Below are positions 12,852-20,137 of a DNA stretch of 39,338 bases, one piece after another. The stretch is from Anaerolineae bacterium (GTDB lineage: Bacteria > Chloroflexota > Anaerolineae > Aggregatilineales > Aggregatilineaceae). The notes beneath the pieces are model-generated. The model was not told the origin of the DNA and did not search any database. It was given only the letters and a program-made list of their open reading frames with translations. Position 1 is the stretch's first letter, and the number at the start of each line of letters is the position of its first letter. The DNA lies in assembly GCA_023382715.1 (NCBI GenBank), contig JAHDWP010000032.1, positions 1 through 39,338 on the forward strand. Direction: 5' to 3'. A program made the translations under genes and the position numbers.

Positions 12852-13952
12852 CTACGTCGCGTGTTCGCCCGCCTGGCGAGCGATCTCCTGACGCAGCGAA
12901 TCTAGCAGCCTGAGCTGACCTGTCGCGCCGTCGCGAAAATACCAGTGCGTCCACCCGTTACAGGATGGGGCGTTTTTCAACCACGCGCTGACCTGGTGAA
13001 TTGAGCCGATGTGCCCGTTGGCCTGTAACCGCCCGTCCCCCAGGATGATGGCCCGGTGATCGGTCCGCTCCAGGTATAACTCCTGCCCGGCCCGAAGGTA
13101 TCCCCGCTCGAGGAGGGCTTTGAAGGGCACGCGCGCCGCGTTTTTGCGGGAGGGCGTGTCGAGGAGGGGGTCGGTTGGGCTGAGAGGCTTGACCGCCGCC
13201 ACACGCTTTTCCGCCGCCTGGAAATAAACCTCATCGCGTTCGATCCCCAGCCAGTGACGGTGCAGCAGCCTGGCGACCGCCGCCGTCGTGCCGGTGCCGC
13301 TGAAGGGATCGAGGACCAGGTCGCCTGGCAGGCTGCTGGCCAGGATGATGCGCTTGAGCAGCTCCTCTGGCTTCTGTGTCGAATGGAGCTTCCGGCCAGC
13401 TTCGTCCCGCAGGCGCTCCTCGCCGCCACAGACGTTGATCGGCCAGACACTGCCCAGTTGCTTGCCCTCGTTGAACTGCTTCATGGCGTGGTGGTTGAAG
13501 GTGTAGCGCGCGCCCTGGCTGTGCTGCGCCCAGATCACGAACTCAACGTCATTCTTCAGGCGCGTGCCGCGAAAGTTGGGCATGGCGTTCGGCTTGTACC
13601 AGGTGACGGTGTTCAGGATCCAGAAGTCGAGGTCTTGCAGGATGGCCCCCACGCGGAAGATGTTGTGGTAGGTGCCCGAAATCCAGATCGTCGCCGTCTC
13701 CTTCATGACCTCGCGGACGGCCAGCAGCCAGGCGCGGGTGAAGGCATCGTAGGCGTCGAAGCCGTCGAACTGATCCCAGGCGTCATCTACGGCGTCCACG
13801 CGGGTCAGGTTGGGCCGCCAGAGTTCCTGCTGCAATTGCAGGTTGTACGGCGGATCGGCGAAGACCAGGTCTGCGCTGCGCCGGGGCAGCGCCGGCAGGA
13901 TGTCCAGCGCATCGCCGAGCAGAATCGTGTCCAGGAAGAGGTTGTCGGCCAT
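12852..13952 (-). CDS. Adenine-N6 DNA methyltransferase, CcrM-like (probable GANTC)
   Basis: 366-aa beta-class methyltransferase. The catalytic DPPYN is at 33-37 and the later SAM motif DPFSGTGTT at 215-223, the order seen in CcrM/HinfI-type enzymes. The C-terminal domain (about 270-360) contains SIHQVSAW and CNGWTHWYF, which resembles the CcrM-specific C-terminal domain with its CNGWTFW signature. CcrM methylates GANTC. No endonuclease gene is adjacent, so it looks like an orphan, possibly epigenetic, enzyme. The ATG at 13952 has GGTGAG upstream; GTG starts at 13964 or 14012 are alternatives. Two GANTC sites lie close upstream (14006-14010 and 14029-14033), where methylation could feed back on expression. 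Confidence 0.85.
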   Translation of the reverse strand: MADNLFLDTILLGDALDILPALPRRSADLVFADPPYNLQLQQELWRPNLTRVDAVDDAWDQFDGFDAYDAFTRAWLLAVREVMKETATIWISGTYHNIFRVGAILQDLDFWILNTVTWYKPNAMPNFRGTRLKNDVEFVIWAQHSQGARYTFNHHAMKQFNEGKQLGSVWPINVCGGEERLRDEAGRKLHSTQKPEELLKRIILASSLPGDLVLDPFSGTGTTAAVARLLHRHWLGIERDEVYFQAAEKRVAAVKPLSPTDPLLDTPSRKNAARVPFKALLERGYLRAGQELYLERTDHRAIILGDGRLQANGHIGSIHQVSAWLKNAPSCNGWTHWYFRDGATGQLRLLDSLRQEIARQAGEHAT

Positions 13953-14263
13953 CGTATCGCTCACCGCGCCACCCTGGGCGCATAGTTCAGCGAAGCTCAA
14001 TGAGCGACTCACAGACTGCTTACGCTATGAGTCATATCTATTTTAAACTATTTGCACTCAGAAGGGAACCGCTTGCGCGGCAGGGGGCATTTTACGATAG
14101 GGGGAAAGTGCCTGAACCGCAGAGACGCAGAGGGCGCGGAGAACAGCAAAGAAACTCTTTAGCCTTTCTCTGCGCTCTCTGCGCCTCTGCGATGATGCTT
14201 TGCTCCACAATTCGCCCACGCCTACACCCCCCAACTCCGCCCTCAACAGGCCCCCGGCGCGTG
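13953..14263. other. Divergent intergenic region between the methyltransferase and prfA
   Basis: It holds two GANTC sites (14006-14010 and 14029-14033), an AT-rich patch at 14034-14050 that may carry the methyltransferase promoter (no clear box pair), the CGCAGAG hairpin repeat at 14115-14191, and the prfA promoter at its right end. No gene is supported. Confidence 0.5.
14115..14191. repeat. Palindromic CGCAGAGACGCAGAG repeat (copy 1)
   Basis: ACCGCAGAGACGCAGAGGGC on the left faces CTCTGCGCTCTCTGCGCCTC on the right, a ~77-bp imperfect hairpin made of GCAGAGA-like units. Copies occur at 26244-26321 and 27924-28010, all intergenic. Arms are conserved while the central loop differs. Confidence 0.7.
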
Positions 14264-15617: not shown

Positions 15618-18029
15618 CTACCCCTGTGGCACCAGGCTGACGACGGTCACGCCGTCGCCGCCCTCCTTCGGCTGGCCGGTCTGATAGCGCCCCACCAGCG
15701 GATGCCCGTGCAACCGGTCGCGGATGGCCACGCGCAGCGCGCCGGTGCCCTTGCCGTGAATGATACGCACGAAGGGCAGCCCGGCCATGTAGGCCGCGTC
15801 TAGGTAGTCTTCCAGCGCGGGGACGGCGTCCTCGATGCGCTGGCCGCGCAGGTCAAGCTCCAGGCCGGGCGAGGCGACTTTGGTCGTCACCTCAGCGGCA
15901 GAGGCGCTGGCCCCGCGCACGCGCGACACGGTACGCTTCTTCTTGTCGCGCTTGCTCTCGGTCTGCGAGCGGGCGGACAGATCGTCCAGCCTGGCCCGCA
16001 GCCGCAGTCGCCCGACCATCACCTCGGCCTCGTCCTCGCCGATCTCGGTGATCTGCCCCTCGGCGTTGATCGAGCTGACCCACACCAGGTCGCCCAGCCG
16101 GAAGCGCGGCGGCTCCTCGTCGTCGCGCAGGCTCTCCGCCGGCCCCGGTACGAAGGTTATCCCGTCCTCTAACTCCTTAACCTCGCCCTCCACCTGGCGG
16201 ATCACGTCGAGCGGCTGGGCAGCGGCGCTCAGCCGCTTGCGCAGCCGGCGCATCTCGGCGCGCAGCGCCTCCAATTCCTGCTGCGCCTCTTCGCGCGCCT
16301 GGGCCAGCACCGCCCGGCGCTCGTCCTCGATGGATTCCAGGCGACCGCGCAGCTCGGCGCGCAACTCTTCGACGGCGCTGAACGACCTGACGCTGGCTTC
16401 GGCGGCGCGGCGCGTCTCTTCGCGCTTCTTGTGCAGCTCGTCGAGCAGGTCGTCGGCGATCAGGTCGTCCTCGGTCAGCAGGCCGCGCGCCCCCTCGGTG
16501 ATACGCCGGGGCAGCCCCAGCCGCTCGGCGATGGCCAGCGCGTTGGAGCGGCCCGGCAGCCCTACAACCAGGCGATAAGTGGGGGCGAGCGTCTTCAGAT
16601 TGAACTCGACGCTGGCGTTCTGCACGCCCGGCGTCTCGTGGCTGTAGATTTTCAGTTCCGGGTGATGCGTCGTCACCAGGGTGGTGATACCCCGCCCCAC
16701 CAGGTCGTTGAGCAGCGCGCGGGCCAGGGCCGCACCCTCGGCGGGGTCAGTGCCCGCGCCCAATTCGTCGAGGATGACCAGCGACTCGTGGTCGGCCTCG
16801 TCCAGGATGCCGATGATGTTGGTCATGTGCGAAGAGAAGGTCGAAAGCGACTGCTCGATGCTCTGCTCGTCGCCGATGTCGGCGAAGATGTCGCGGAAGA
16901 CCGTCAGGCGCGACCCCGGCGCGGCGGGCAGATGCAGCCCGCACTGGGCCATCAGCGCCAGCAGCCCGACCGTCTTGAGGGCGACGGTCTTGCCGCCGGT
17001 GTTCGGCCCGGTGATGACCAGCACGTAGGTCTGCTCGTCCATCTCCACGTCAATAGCGACGACGGTTTTGGGGTCGAGCAGCGGGTGGCGGGCGCGCAGC
17101 AGGTGGATCGTGCTGCCGGGGTGCGGGTGCGGCGCGCCGCTGAAGCCGACCAGCTCTGGCGCGGCGGCCTCGATAGCCTCGGCGTACTTGGCTTTGGCGA
17201 AGGCCAGGTCGAGCAGGGCCAGCGTCTCGACGGTGCGGATGATGTAGCGCGCCTCGTGGCCGACCAGGTCGCTCAACTCGCGCAGGATGCGGCGAATCTC
17301 GTTCTCCTCCTCAAGCTGAAGCTCGCGCCAGGCGTTGTTCAGCTCGACAGTGGAGAGCGGCTCGATGAACAGCGTCGCGCCGCTGCTGCTCTGATCGTGG
17401 ACGATGCCGGGGATGCGCCCCTTGAACTCGGCCTTGAGCGGGATGACGTAGCGCCCGTGCCGCTGCGTGATCAGCTTCTCCTGCAGGTAGGTCGCGTTGT
17501 TGGTGTTGTTGATGATGTTGTGCAGCTTGTCCTGCAGCCGGTCGAAGGCGATGCGCATCTCGCGGCGCACGGTGGCCAGCTTGGGGCTGGCGGAATCCAG
17601 GATTTCGCCCGTCTCGTCGAGCACGCGCGCGATCTCGTGCTGCAGGGCGGTGCACTCTTCCAGCCGCTCGGCGATGTCCGCCAGGCGCGGGAACTGGCTC
17701 CCCAGCCGCCCGATGAAGCGGTGCAGGGTGGTTGCCTGGCGCAGCGTGGCGCGGATGTCGAGCAGAGTCTGCGGCTCCAGCAGCACACCGCGCTCGGCGG
17801 CCAGGACATCGGGCCGCACGTCGCGCGCCCCGCCGACGGTGATGTGGTCGTGGCTGGCCAGCAGCAGGCGGGCCTCGCTCGTCTCCTGCAGGCGCTCCTG
17901 GGCTTCGTCCAGATGGGGTGTCGGCGTCAGGGCGAGGGCCAGCTCGCGGCTGGCCGAGAAAGCCGTGTGGCGCGCCAGCCGCTCCAGAATCTTCGGCAGC
18001 TCAAGGGTTTGCGCCGATTTCTCGTTCAT
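15618..18029 (-). CDS. mutS2: MutS2 ATPase with C-terminal Smr nuclease domain
   Basis: 803-aa MutS2. The core and clamp-like domain spans about 1-310. The ABC-type ATPase has Walker A GPNTGGKT (341-348), Walker B LVILDE (417-422) and GAGTDP, then DNA-contact STFSSHM. A long charged coiled coil follows (about 530-605), then a KOW/SH3-like segment (about 640-680). The Smr domain (724-803) has LDLRG (725-729) and HGKGTG (758-763). MutS2 suppresses homologous recombination in some bacteria and senses collided ribosomes in Bacillus; the Smr domain can cleave nucleic acid. The ATG at 18029 fits the conserved MNEK start; an in-frame extension upstream is repeat sequence. A candidate RNA gene lies directly upstream. 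Confidence 0.95.
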   Translation of the reverse strand: MNEKSAQTLELPKILERLARHTAFSASRELALALTPTPHLDEAQERLQETSEARLLLASHDHITVGGARDVRPDVLAAERGVLLEPQTLLDIRATLRQATTLHRFIGRLGSQFPRLADIAERLEECTALQHEIARVLDETGEILDSASPKLATVRREMRIAFDRLQDKLHNIINNTNNATYLQEKLITQRHGRYVIPLKAEFKGRIPGIVHDQSSSGATLFIEPLSTVELNNAWRELQLEEENEIRRILRELSDLVGHEARYIIRTVETLALLDLAFAKAKYAEAIEAAAPELVGFSGAPHPHPGSTIHLLRARHPLLDPKTVVAIDVEMDEQTYVLVITGPNTGGKTVALKTVGLLALMAQCGLHLPAAPGSRLTVFRDIFADIGDEQSIEQSLSTFSSHMTNIIGILDEADHESLVILDELGAGTDPAEGAALARALLNDLVGRGITTLVTTHHPELKIYSHETPGVQNASVEFNLKTLAPTYRLVVGLPGRSNALAIAERLGLPRRITEGARGLLTEDDLIADDLLDELHKKREETRRAAEASVRSFSAVEELRAELRGRLESIEDERRAVLAQAREEAQQELEALRAEMRRLRKRLSAAAQPLDVIRQVEGEVKELEDGITFVPGPAESLRDDEEPPRFRLGDLVWVSSINAEGQITEIGEDEAEVMVGRLRLRARLDDLSARSQTESKRDKKKRTVSRVRGASASAAEVTTKVASPGLELDLRGQRIEDAVPALEDYLDAAYMAGLPFVRIIHGKGTGALRVAIRDRLHGHPLVGRYQTGQPKEGGDGVTVVSLVPQG

Positions 18030-18135
18030 TGTGTGTTCCAATCTGTATAGGTTGTTGGTTATTGGTGGTTGGTGGTGAGTGGTGAGCGGTGGGGTGTCTA
18101 TCGCTGACGGCCCTGCGCTCGCCACCACGCTGCCC

Positions 18136-18175
18136 AATAAAAACGCCGTGGTGCGTCTCTTCGACTCCCACGGCG
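18136..18175 (-). terminator. Rho-independent terminator of the candidate RNA
   Basis: On the minus strand CGCCGTGG and CCACGGCG form a perfect 8-bp stem with a 16-nt loop, followed by TTTTTATT. Confidence 0.8.
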
Positions 18176-18211
18176 ATCGGTCTCACAGGCCCGCCCGACG
18201 GCGCGGCGCGC

Positions 18212-18289
18212 TCAGCGGTCGCGCCCGGCGCCGAGACTGGCGGCGCGCTCGGAAGTCGAACTGGATGGGTTGGGACGACCTGCGTTCAC
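18212..18289 (-). CDS. Possible 25-codon leader peptide inside the candidate RNA
   Basis: GTG start (18289) 7 nt after a perfect AAAGGAGG, ending at TGA (18212-18214). The product starts MNAGRPNPSSSTSERA and is low in complexity; it matches nothing I know. The strong Shine-Dalgarno sequence is the only real support. It could be a regulatory leader peptide or chance. Confidence 0.3.
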   Translation of the reverse strand: MNAGRPNPSSSTSERAASLGAGRDR

Positions 18290-18338
18290 CGGGCGGCCTC
18301 CTTTCTACCAGACTCGTGCGCGGACGATACCAGGGAGA

Positions 18339-18368
18339 AGTATACGTGATGACGGCGGGAATTGTCAA
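18339..18368 (-). promoter_or_regulatory. Strong sigma-70 promoter of the candidate RNA
   Basis: On the minus strand TTGACA (18368-18363), an 18-bp spacer and TATACT (18344-18339). The predicted transcription start is near 18331. Confidence 0.75.
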
Positions 18369-18451
18369 CGGTCAGCGCGAGGCGCGTTCCCCCAGAGAAC
18401 GCCCGCCCCAAGCCCTTCGCTGACCGCTGACTGCCGACCGCTGGCGGCTGC

Positions 18452-19066
18452 TCACCCCAGCGCCGCGCGCAGCGCTTCTTCGCTGAGCGGGCCAGGGCGC
18501 AGGATGCGCAGTTCGTCCCCCTCAAAGGCGACGACCGTCGAGGGCACCCCGCCCAGGCACGTCCCGCCGTCCACATACAGCGCGACGGCCTCGCCCAGGT
18601 AGCGCATCGCCGCCTGGATGGTGCAGGCCGGCGGCTGGTCGGAGCGGTTGGCGCTGCTCACGGCCAGCGCGCCGCCTGCCGCCGCCAGGATCGCCCGCGT
18701 CTGGGGCAGGTTGGGCACGCGCACGCCCACTGTGGGCAGCAGCGAGAGGCTGGGGGGCAGGTCGTCGCGCCTGGGCAGGGCCAGCGTCAGCGGGCCGGGC
18801 CAGAACGCTTCGGCCAGCCGCCGCGCCGGGGCGGGGAATTCGCGGGCGACGCGCAGCACGTCGTCGAGGTCGGCCAGCAGCACGGGGATCGCGCGCTCTG
18901 CCGGGCGGCGCTTGGCGACGAACAGCCGCTCGATGGCCGCCTCGTCAATGCGCGCCCCGACGCCGTAGACGGTGTCGGTCGGCAGCACGATCAGGTCGCC
19001 GCGCGCGACGGTCGTCGCCGCGATCAGGGCTGTGTCCGCGTGATTGAGCGAGATAATGCGCGCCAT
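18452..19066 (-). CDS. tsaC: Threonylcarbamoyl-AMP synthase (Sua5/YrdC/TsaC family)
   Basis: 204-aa YrdC-domain protein that makes threonylcarbamoyl-AMP from threonine, bicarbonate and ATP, the first step of the tRNA t6A37 modification. The signature LPTDTVYGVG is at residues 28-37, followed by the KRRPAERAIPVLL loop, WPGPLTLAL, SSAN in the later motif and PSTVV near the end. It has the short YrdC form without the extra Sua5 domain. Start at 19066. Its pairing with prmC and prfA in one region is a known bacterial neighbourhood. Confidence 0.93.
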   Translation of the reverse strand: MARIISLNHADTALIAATTVARGDLIVLPTDTVYGVGARIDEAAIERLFVAKRRPAERAIPVLLADLDDVLRVAREFPAPARRLAEAFWPGPLTLALPRRDDLPPSLSLLPTVGVRVPNLPQTRAILAAAGGALAVSSANRSDQPPACTIQAAMRYLGEAVALYVDGGTCLGGVPSTVVAFEGDELRILRPGPLSEEALRAALG

Positions 19067-19104
19067 CTAGTCCCCCAGTCGGATGCGTGCAAAACCTGTC
19101 AGGG

Positions 19105-19127
19105 TGGGGCGCTGCTCTGCTGCGCCC
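19105..19127 (+). repeat. Short hairpin repeat (copy 4)
   Basis: TGGGGCGCTGCTCTGCTGCG followed by CCC, directly followed by CTGG and the TGACCTCACCCCC element, as at 103-125. Confidence 0.6.
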
Positions 19128-19131
19128 TGGT

Positions 19132-19230
19132 TGACCTCACCCCCGCTCGGCGCTGACGCGCCTTGCCGCCCCCTCTCCATTCGAATGGAGAGGGAGCAAG
19201 CCGAGCGTAGCGAGGCTGGGGGTGAGGTCA
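19132..19230. repeat. MITE-like repeat with perfect 13-bp terminal inverted repeats (copy 2)
   Basis: TGACCTCACCCCC (19132-19144) and GGGGGTGAGGTCA (19218-19230) are exact complements. The centre contains a perfect 24-bp palindrome, CCCTCTCCATTC plus its complement (19171-19194). In the copy at 3-98 the same hairpin arms are kept but the loop is different. It fills the gap between tsaC and prmC. Confidence 0.75.
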
Positions 19231-19255
19231 ATGCCCTGCGTCCAGCGAGTCGCTG

Positions 19256-20137
19256 TCAACCTTTGCACGCCCCCCATTCCGCGCTAATCACGCGGTCGAG
19301 ACCGGCGTAATCGGCATGCACCGTCACCCGCGCGCCGGGCAGCGCCGTCGCCGCCAGCGCTGCCGCGCGCTCCCCTTGCTCCGCCTCAATTTCTAGCAGC
19401 AGCAGCCCATCCGCCGCCAGGATACGCGGCACCTGGGCCAGCAGCCGCCGGATCACGGCCAGGCCATCCGGCCCGCCGTCGAGGGCCAGGCGCGGCTCGT
19501 GACGACTCACCGGAAGCGTCTCCAGCGCGCTCGTCGGCACATAGGGCAGATTGGCCGCGATCAGGTCGAACGCGCCGCGCGCGCCCAGCAGCGGCCCCAG
19601 CAAATCCGCCTGCACCAGATGCACACGCTCAGCCAGATCATAGCGCGCTGCGTTGCGGCGGGCTACGCCGAGCGCCGCCCGCGACACATCCAGCGCCCAG
19701 ACCCGCGCCCCTGGCAGGTGGCGGGCCAGGGTCACGGCGATGACCCCGCTGCCCGTCCCCACGTCAGCAATGCGGGGCGATCTCGCGCGCGCCCGCGCCC
19801 AGGCCAGCGCCCGCTCGACCAGGTGCTCCGTCTCCGGGCGGGGGATGAGCACGTCCGGCGTGACGATCAGCGTCAGGTCGAAGAAGGCGCGCTCACCAGT
19901 CAGATAGGCGAGGGGGACGCCGCTCGCACGGCGCTCCACCAGGGCGCAGAAAGTCGTGAATTGGGCGGGAGTCAGGGGGCGCTGCGGGTGCGCGAGCAGG
20001 GCGGTCCGCTCGCAGCCCAGGATGTGAGCCAGCAGCAGCGGCGCGTCGAGCGGCTCGGAGCCGGCGACCTCGTTCAGCACGGCGCGCGCCCAGGCCAGCG
20101 CTCCGGCGATGGTAGTTGGTGGATGGCGGTGGGTCAT
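19256..20137 (-). CDS. prmC: Release factor glutamine N5-methyltransferase
   Basis: 293-aa HemK/PrmC protein that methylates the Gln of the GGQ motif in release factors 1 and 2. The N-terminal helical domain is about 1-80. RPETE is at 100-104, the SAM-binding DVGTGSG at 125-131 and the substrate motif NLPY at 196-199. The usual form is NPPY; Leu at the second position is a mild change that leaves the Asn, the last Pro and the Tyr. The ATG at 20137 fits the domain start; an in-frame extension to 20170 is not conserved. It has a good promoter at 20240-20268. Its substrate RF1 is encoded about 4 kb away. Confidence 0.94.
   Translation of the reverse strand: MTHRHPPTTIAGALAWARAVLNEVAGSEPLDAPLLLAHILGCERTALLAHPQRPLTPAQFTTFCALVERRASGVPLAYLTGERAFFDLTLIVTPDVLIPRPETEHLVERALAWARARARSPRIADVGTGSGVIAVTLARHLPGARVWALDVSRAALGVARRNAARYDLAERVHLVQADLLGPLLGARGAFDLIAANLPYVPTSALETLPVSRHEPRLALDGGPDGLAVIRRLLAQVPRILAADGLLLLEIEAEQGERAAALAATALPGARVTVHADYAGLDRVISAEWGACKG

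Follow-up and report, generated by a model that had tools for sequence, protein, structure and literature searches.

A candidate translation-dependent attenuator upstream of mutS2 in one family of Anaerolineae

What sets MutS2 levels in bacterial cells is, to our knowledge, an open question. It is raised by a stretch of 39,338 nucleotides from an Anaerolineae bacterium (contig JAHDWP010000032.1, hereafter the window), in which mutS2 is preceded on the minus strand by a short unit with a promoter and a terminator of its own. The earlier note on this DNA left three roles for the unit: a free small RNA, a micro-protein mRNA or a ribosome-responsive leader of mutS2. Comparison within the bacterial family of the window supports the last of these, the unit being found at 14/14 loci with an antiterminator segment inside its upstream open reading frame (uORF). 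We propose, with a probability of about 0.62, that the unit is a transcription attenuator of mutS2 that depends on this uORF, and that impaired translation would switch mutS2 on.

The unit is ordered on the minus strand as promoter, Shine-Dalgarno sequence (SD), uORF, terminator and mutS2 (Table 1). Its promoter, TTGACA-N18-TATACT, fits the consensus at 11 of 12 bases and is the sole promoter-like site listed within 17000-19500, where shuffles of the region give 0.2. Transcription of the leader would start near 18332. The SD is complementary over 10 nt to the 16S 3' end of the same-family genome G011 (CACCTCCTTTCT), which alone was used for this comparison; the 16S 3' end was looked for in the window's own assembly and not found. 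A CCCCCTTTCT match in G006, apparently fitting the GGGGG SD of that genome, was discarded because it is not 16S. Five copies of AGAAAGGAGG are present across the 3.88 Mb genome of the window. By eye, this rare SD is also seen upstream of a ribosomal protein L10-like frame at L198 (G000:C12). The terminator scanner listed none in 17000-19500; its loop limit is 8 and the loop of this hairpin is 16. Promoter, SD, GTG frame of 25 codons and terminator had all been read correctly in the earlier note.

Table 1. Coordinates of the mutS2 leader, its pairing segments and mutS2 in the window
Feature	Position	Strand	Basis
-35 box TTGACA	18363..18368	-	promoter scan; TTG[AT]CA script match in 14/14 family loci
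-10 box TATACT	18339..18344	-	promoter scan; TATACT in 14/14 family loci
uORF SD AGAAAGGAGG	18297..18306	-	complementary to CCTCCTTTCT at a 16S 3' end
AAAGGAGG, inside SD AGAAAGGAGG	18304-18297	-	sequence
Segment A, SD + start codon arm, pairs with C	18287..18302	-	family alignment, all-against-all scan
uORF, GTG start, 25 codons, TGA stop	18212..18289	-	open frame in 14/14 family loci
Segment B, antiterminator arm inside uORF	18250..18260	-	pairs 11/11 with 18170-18160
Segment C, uORF end overlapping stop codon, pairs with A	18213..18230	-	family alignment, all-against-all scan
Terminator hairpin CGCCGUGG/CCACGGCG, then UUUUU	18175-18139	-	sequence
Segment D, 5' arm and inner part of terminator, partner E or B	18160..18175	-	alignment and scans
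Segment E, terminator 3' arm	18144..18151	-	alignment
U-tract of terminator	18139..18143	-	sequence; T-run 3' of hairpin in 14/14 family loci
mutS2, proposed regulated gene; MutS_V, MSSS, Smr domains	15618..18029	-	ATG at 18029

A Sua5/YrdC gene lies upstream of the mutS2 leader. On the other side of the terminator, TATACA is found at 18049-18044, 14 nt 5' of the mutS2 ATG, where the promoter scan listed no site; genomes with a long spacer between terminator and mutS2 may have a second mutS2 start site. The distance from the end of the U-tract to the mutS2 match is 12-108 nt in the 12 loci measured, ~90 nt in L022 and ~160 nt in L020. In the window this spacer (18050-18130, minus strand) is rich in CACCACTCACCACCAACCACCAATAACCAA, and similar tracts in L015 and L022 suggest a simple repeat that is spreading. 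Downstream of mutS2, the second long frame (12852-14012, minus strand) codes for a DNA methylase (N6_N4_Mtase) that carries a RAMA domain at its C terminus.

The unit matches no Rfam family, in line with the earlier note, which recognized no RNA class in it: a search of the whole window against Rfam 15 gave no family at the gathering threshold, and in E-value mode only three matches (E 0.28-4.9) far below the gathering scores of their families. Eight leader loci, three of them from the window's family, likewise gave no Rfam 15 family at threshold. The description of the stretch as strongly foldable was not borne out. The folding energy of the window's leader has a z-score of -0.31 against dinucleotide shuffles, 76/200 of which fold as well, and the z-score was dropped as proof of structure.

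The anatomy of the unit was compared among 18 genomes of the family. At all 14 readable loci the same parts in the same order precede mutS2: promoter, leader, intrinsic terminator and gene on one strand, as in an attenuator, and by sequence the leader carries a short ORF with a ribosome-binding site in every case. The promoter spacer is 16-19 in all 14 loci (script match), the uORF starts 6-10 nt 3' of the SD core and the terminator arm follows its stop codon by 31-48 nt. The uORF has 23-26 codons, or 39 in L019. Its stop codon occupies a fixed alignment column in 12/13 sequences, with TAA, TAG and TGA interchanged, the exception being L011. A covariance model built from 13 family loci finds the same 14 loci as strong matches among the 18 genomes, all upstream of mutS2, including G015, which was outside the model (E 4e-12). 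The next-best family matches, L190 and L191, are weak (E 2e-4 and 9.5e-4) and resemble simple terminators. No strong match was found in G004, G010, G014 and G016, none of which gave an intact mutS2 start: in G010 mutS2 is cut at a contig end, and the other three have at most a weaker MutS-like match.

Beyond the family the unit was not seen by eye in the 400 nt 5' of the mutS2 match at 29 loci from seven sister families of the same order, obtained from 30 genomes searched. Among 396 genomes of the class, the sole strong model match is the window's own genome, the other family members being outside that sample. A strict promoter-SD pattern matched four times in 151 genomes of the order, always at loci of the known unit; its fixed gap, being too tight, left the remaining loci of the family unmatched. 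A loose terminator scan of 300-nt windows, which for the family end 60 nt inside the mutS2 match, was positive for 14/14 family loci, 8/29 sister-family loci and 14/65 loci of a second set, from which 15 of 80 had been left out (11 of the window's family and four with hardly any sequence 5' of the gene). The earlier note had named a lack of conservation 5' of mutS2 homologues as grounds for refutation; conservation is found inside the family and was not seen outside it. As far as these genomes tell, the leader unit is limited to one family, known mostly from MAGs.

Three helices can be drawn in the leader, A:C, B:D and D:E. The pairing of A with C and of D with E leaves 90.8% of alignment cells paired, against 38-54% when the segments are slid, with the lowest value (82.1%) in the outer part of A:C, that of the SD. 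The number of pair types in these two helices is unremarkable, being reached by 281/500 column shuffles. The earlier note had proposed a different long-range pairing, of AGGCCGCCCG with CGGGCGGGCCU. Such a pairing can be drawn if a single G is bulged; in the helix that the family conserves, however, the partner of this SD and start codon arm is the end of the uORF. Single-sequence folds of L008, L010, L013 and L022 nearly lack A:C.

The idea of B:D came from prefix folds and was tested on an alignment made beforehand. When leader windows were placed against D windows, the B:D diagonal was the top (0.897) of 873 placements, the best off-diagonal placement reaching 0.655 (mean 0.42, sd 0.09). 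In an unbiased all-against-all scan of the whole alignment (6374 placements) B:D scored 0.948, making it the strongest helix after the terminator itself (D:E, 0.971) and ahead of A:C (0.897). A placement at 0.933, which sets D against E plus the U-tract in a register that is shifted and rich in G-U pairs, was not counted as evidence. Further placements were SD with U-tract (0.893), the C region with E and U-tract (0.826) and a partial A:D (0.748). The pairings involving the U-tract (0.933, 0.893 and 0.826) are taken as incidental.

B:D cells are paired in 89.5% of cases, against 37-54% when slid, and their covariation is 0.470, against 0.106-0.154. Either score is reached by 1/500 column shuffles, and the number of cells changed on both sides by 4/500. 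Two other measures are unremarkable: pairs changed on both sides (143/500 shuffles) and further pair types (255/500). The changes between sequences include U-A to A-U and C-G to U-A. Cognate B and D beat mixed ones, pairing at 108/121 positions over 11 lineages, a total reached by 144/20000 permutations. The stricter null is tree-based: among 2000 simulations with 13 sequences the observed value was reached 59 times for B:D, 37 for its core, 25 for D:E and 105 for A:C. Taken together with the slid and shuffled controls, this leaves the complementarity of B and D clear and the excess of joint changes modest. The match is not equally good everywhere. L015 pairs at 9/11 positions with two mismatches in the core, and in only 3/14 loci does the full leader pair with D at an energy clearly better than that of shuffled leaders (fraction <=0.03), L015 and L018 showing no advantage at all.

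B:D and D:E are mutually exclusive because both use D, so that B could act as an antiterminator; by sequence the leader thus has the antiterminator that excludes the terminator in an attenuator, with the modest standing under the tree-based null given above. A:C and B:D together would make a pseudoknot because B sits in the loop of A:C. The comparison of loci establishes the anatomy, the three predicted helices, the use of D by both B:D and D:E and the fixed position upstream of mutS2. The stop column, the SD and the three helices, conserved over 13-14 loci, stand against the idea that nothing is regulated here and that a constitutive promoter is followed by a spurious ORF and a leaky terminator. 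The unremarkable folding energy of the window unit and the frequency with which short ORFs arise by chance would fit that idea, which we find hardly credible.

The terminator core GCCGUGRGUGUYG is strongly conserved in the family, as would be expected if MutS2 or another protein bound the terminator stem or the leader, the uORF being incidental. The core must also pair with B and E, which can explain its conservation, and the uORF anatomy is kept in 14/14 loci. Such autogenous control is very unlikely.

What is conserved in the uORF is not its product. The leader peptides of the 14 family loci are unconserved; even L016 and L017, the closest pair of the mutS2 tree besides the window and L022, differ at three of 23 residues. 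The RLR stall motif is found in 1/14 peptides (L015). Segment B lies in frame 2 relative to the uORF start in eleven loci, in frame 1 in L012 and L014 and in frame 0 in L019, and the uORF is open to its stop in all 14. Segment B is conserved as RNA. The varying frame of B, the unconserved peptides and the missing stall motif point to the act of translation, rather than the peptide, as the object of selection. A conserved stall peptide, as in arrest-peptide or macrolide-type leaders, was rejected on the single RLR and the three frames of B. A leader of the amino-acid biosynthesis type was also set aside: by eye the 14 peptides share no run of a single amino acid, and only single SSS, LLL and AAA were noted.

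These results bear on the two other roles left by the earlier note. With its own promoter and terminator the unit would yield an RNA of ~195 nt, which might act in trans or code for a micro-protein, its adjacency to mutS2 being a coincidence. Yet all 14 strong matches in the 18 family genomes lie upstream of mutS2, with 12-108 nt between terminator and mutS2 match at the 12 loci measured, the peptide is unconserved, its conserved RNA segment stands in differing frames, and B can undo the terminator. We consider this explanation highly improbable; the main role of the unit would not be that of a free small RNA or a micro-protein mRNA, even if the terminated product is still an RNA of that size.

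In the attenuator that we favour, the polymerase would start at the strong promoter and make first the leader with its very strong ribosome-binding site and short ORF. A:C would hide the ribosome-binding site and the start codon, D:E would terminate and B:D would antiterminate. The uORF is presumably translated, and mutS2 would be transcribed mainly through the leader terminator. When translation of the uORF is normal, ribosomes over B would block B:D, the terminator would form and the short RNA would be released. Should an inhibitor or a shortage of working ribosomes keep ribosomes at or near the beginning of the uORF, B would be free, B:D would form and the polymerase would read through into mutS2. 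Counted from the first base of the start codon, B begins 23 nt or more downstream in all 14 loci, and 29 nt or more separate its end from the stop codon. Given the generally known size of the ribosome footprint, B should be covered by a ribosome at about codons 5-19 and exposed when the ribosome is at the start codon, hence the favoured polarity, most likely that mutS2 is on when translation is impaired. Predicted accessibility of B gives no separation between ribosome states.

The same geometry admits the opposite polarity, in which translation of the uORF opens A:C and frees B, so that mutS2 follows active translation. A ribosome at the stop codon, of the same generally known footprint, would cover C and leave B exposed. 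A ribosome or a queue in mid-uORF would nevertheless cover B, and similar leaders, described below, precede resistance-type genes, whose leaders in other bacteria respond to inhibited translation according to three studies (PMC6310831, PMC4191407, PMC9226507). This polarity is unlikely.

More weight is due to a variant that overlaps with the favoured attenuator, in which the leader senses free 30S subunits rather than stalls. If no 30S binds the SD before C is made, A:C would close, B:D would complete the pseudoknot and read-through would follow; the pseudoknot would exclude ribosomes for as long as the antiterminator holds. If 30S are plentiful, the uORF would be loaded and the terminator would form, so that MutS2, by freeing ribosomes, would shut its own gene. 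A near-maximal SD opposed by a conserved SD-hiding helix fits this variant, as do the unconserved peptide, with no specific stall site evident, and segments sufficiently far apart. It is weakened by the poor support of A:C beyond the tree (105/2000) and by the near absence of this helix from single-sequence folds of the four loci named above. We regard it as possible, at clearly less than even odds.

Loss of MutS2, which splits collided ribosomes, makes B. subtilis sensitive to chloramphenicol, tetracycline and erythromycin (PMC10897456). If the attenuator reading is true, the MutS2 of the family, a predicted rescue factor, would respond directly to the fault that it repairs. The leader is also compact and testable. 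Proteins with an NFACT_N domain (PF05833), which we take to be of the RqcH type, are found in 15/18 family genomes, 14 of them above the cut-off and the window's own included, so that the family probably possesses the pathway into which MutS2 splitting feeds in B. subtilis.

Leaders of trp/his-type biosynthesis operons combine a leader ORF, a terminator and an alternative antiterminator. The mutS2 leader differs from them in lacking a shared amino-acid run and in having a target that is not biosynthetic. Closer likenesses are found among leaders of resistance genes. In Listeria the ribosome-splitting factor gene hflXr (lmo0762), with the RNA rli80, lies behind a terminator, a short ORF and alternative structures; its 14-codon ORF lies in the region covering the anti-antiterminator and carries RLR (PMC6310831). 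The mutS2 leader, in contrast, has the antiterminator arm inside the ORF, an unconserved peptide (RLR in 1/14) and another gene, mutS2. In the bmrB leader of bmrCD from Bacillus subtilis the antiterminator overlaps the translated leader ORF, and its authors propose that efficient translation prevents the antiterminator while slowed translation allows it; the terminator lies inside the 53-codon ORF and the gene codes for a drug exporter (PMC4191407). The terminator of the mutS2 leader is instead 31-48 nt past the stop codon, and the SD-hiding helix is conserved. The vmlR leader of B. subtilis has a uORF, an anti-antiterminator, an antiterminator and a terminator before a resistance gene acting at the ribosome, but its uORF is in the anti-antiterminator hairpin and its target is an ABC-F gene (PMC9226507). 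Its layout is closer to the drug-type Anaerolineae leaders presented below than to the mutS2 leader. A literature search, with most subscription papers out of reach, found no report of mutS2 attenuation or a mutS2 uORF, nor of attenuation in Chloroflexi or Anaerolineae. The putative mutS2 attenuator would be a new form of ribosome-mediated attenuation.

Leaders of related layout are found elsewhere in the class. Outside the family, the mutS2 model has its six best matches at E 5e-4 to 0.0021, with ~0.8 expected in 396 genomes (E-values being rough). L044, L046, L047 and L048 are leaders with SD, short ORF and terminator upstream of other genes; L043 and L045 are not. The four leaders have the box GTAGTGCGCC in common. 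A search of the 396 class genomes for GTAGTGCGCC-N15-45-CCGTGGG gave 30 places in 29 genomes, and its backwards control 16 among the matches listed. By eye 24 of the 30 places were kept (L205, L209, L210 and L212-L232), admitting uORFs that read through the box, although the excess over the backwards control is only 14; L203, L204, L206, L207, L208 and L211 were dropped for want of a terminator. An automatic check, asking for a terminator pattern and an in-frame TAG uORF with SD, passed 9/30. The kept loci L210, L215, L217 and L225 fail the script's terminator pattern; L215 has a hairpin and six T, the others a weaker T-run.

The longest downstream frames at 20/24 of these drug-type loci, compared with Pfam, comprise 12 ABC-transporter parts (that of L210 being a short partial match), two ABC-F-like proteins (two ABC_tran stretches with ABC_tran_Xtn), two MFS and three GNAT proteins and one frame without match. 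The search pattern fixed the box and CCGTGGG and left the loop free. The box pairs with the terminator 5' arm and loop at a mean of -21.3 kcal/mol, versus -13.2 kcal/mol for shuffled loops (24 loci), and in 18/24 loci at most 5% of shuffles reach the observed pairing. Five drug-type leader loci gave no match in Rfam 15. These leaders are possibly antibiotic-responsive, and they suggest that attenuation of the antibiotic type is spread over the Anaerolineae. Some of their uORFs stop in the box (e.g. MLRQFIGGLKGKVSLP in L227); in others the frame seems to continue across it, coding for RSAP.

The mutS2 leader lacks the GTAGTGCGCC box and shares layout and terminator core with the drug-type leaders. 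Their antiterminator is at the end of the uORF, while that of the mutS2 leader is inside it. Since TAGTGCGCC-N15-45-CCGTGGG is found in 0/18 genomes of the window's family, the mutS2 leader would either have branched from the drug-type class, its antiterminator being displaced, or have arisen in parallel. A broader view, which we put forward tentatively and at somewhat under even odds, is that a class of Anaerolineae leaders, marked by a uORF with a strong SD, a helix that hides this SD and a terminator of the CCGUGGG type, senses ribosome trouble. One branch would act on exporter, ABC-F-like and acetyltransferase genes. The family branch, with its antiterminator in the uORF and possibly a pseudoknot, would put mutS2 under feedback from free or moving ribosomes. 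In L044, L046, L047, L048 and L056 a second hairpin and T-run of the same type is seen by eye after the first terminator, most weakly in L048.
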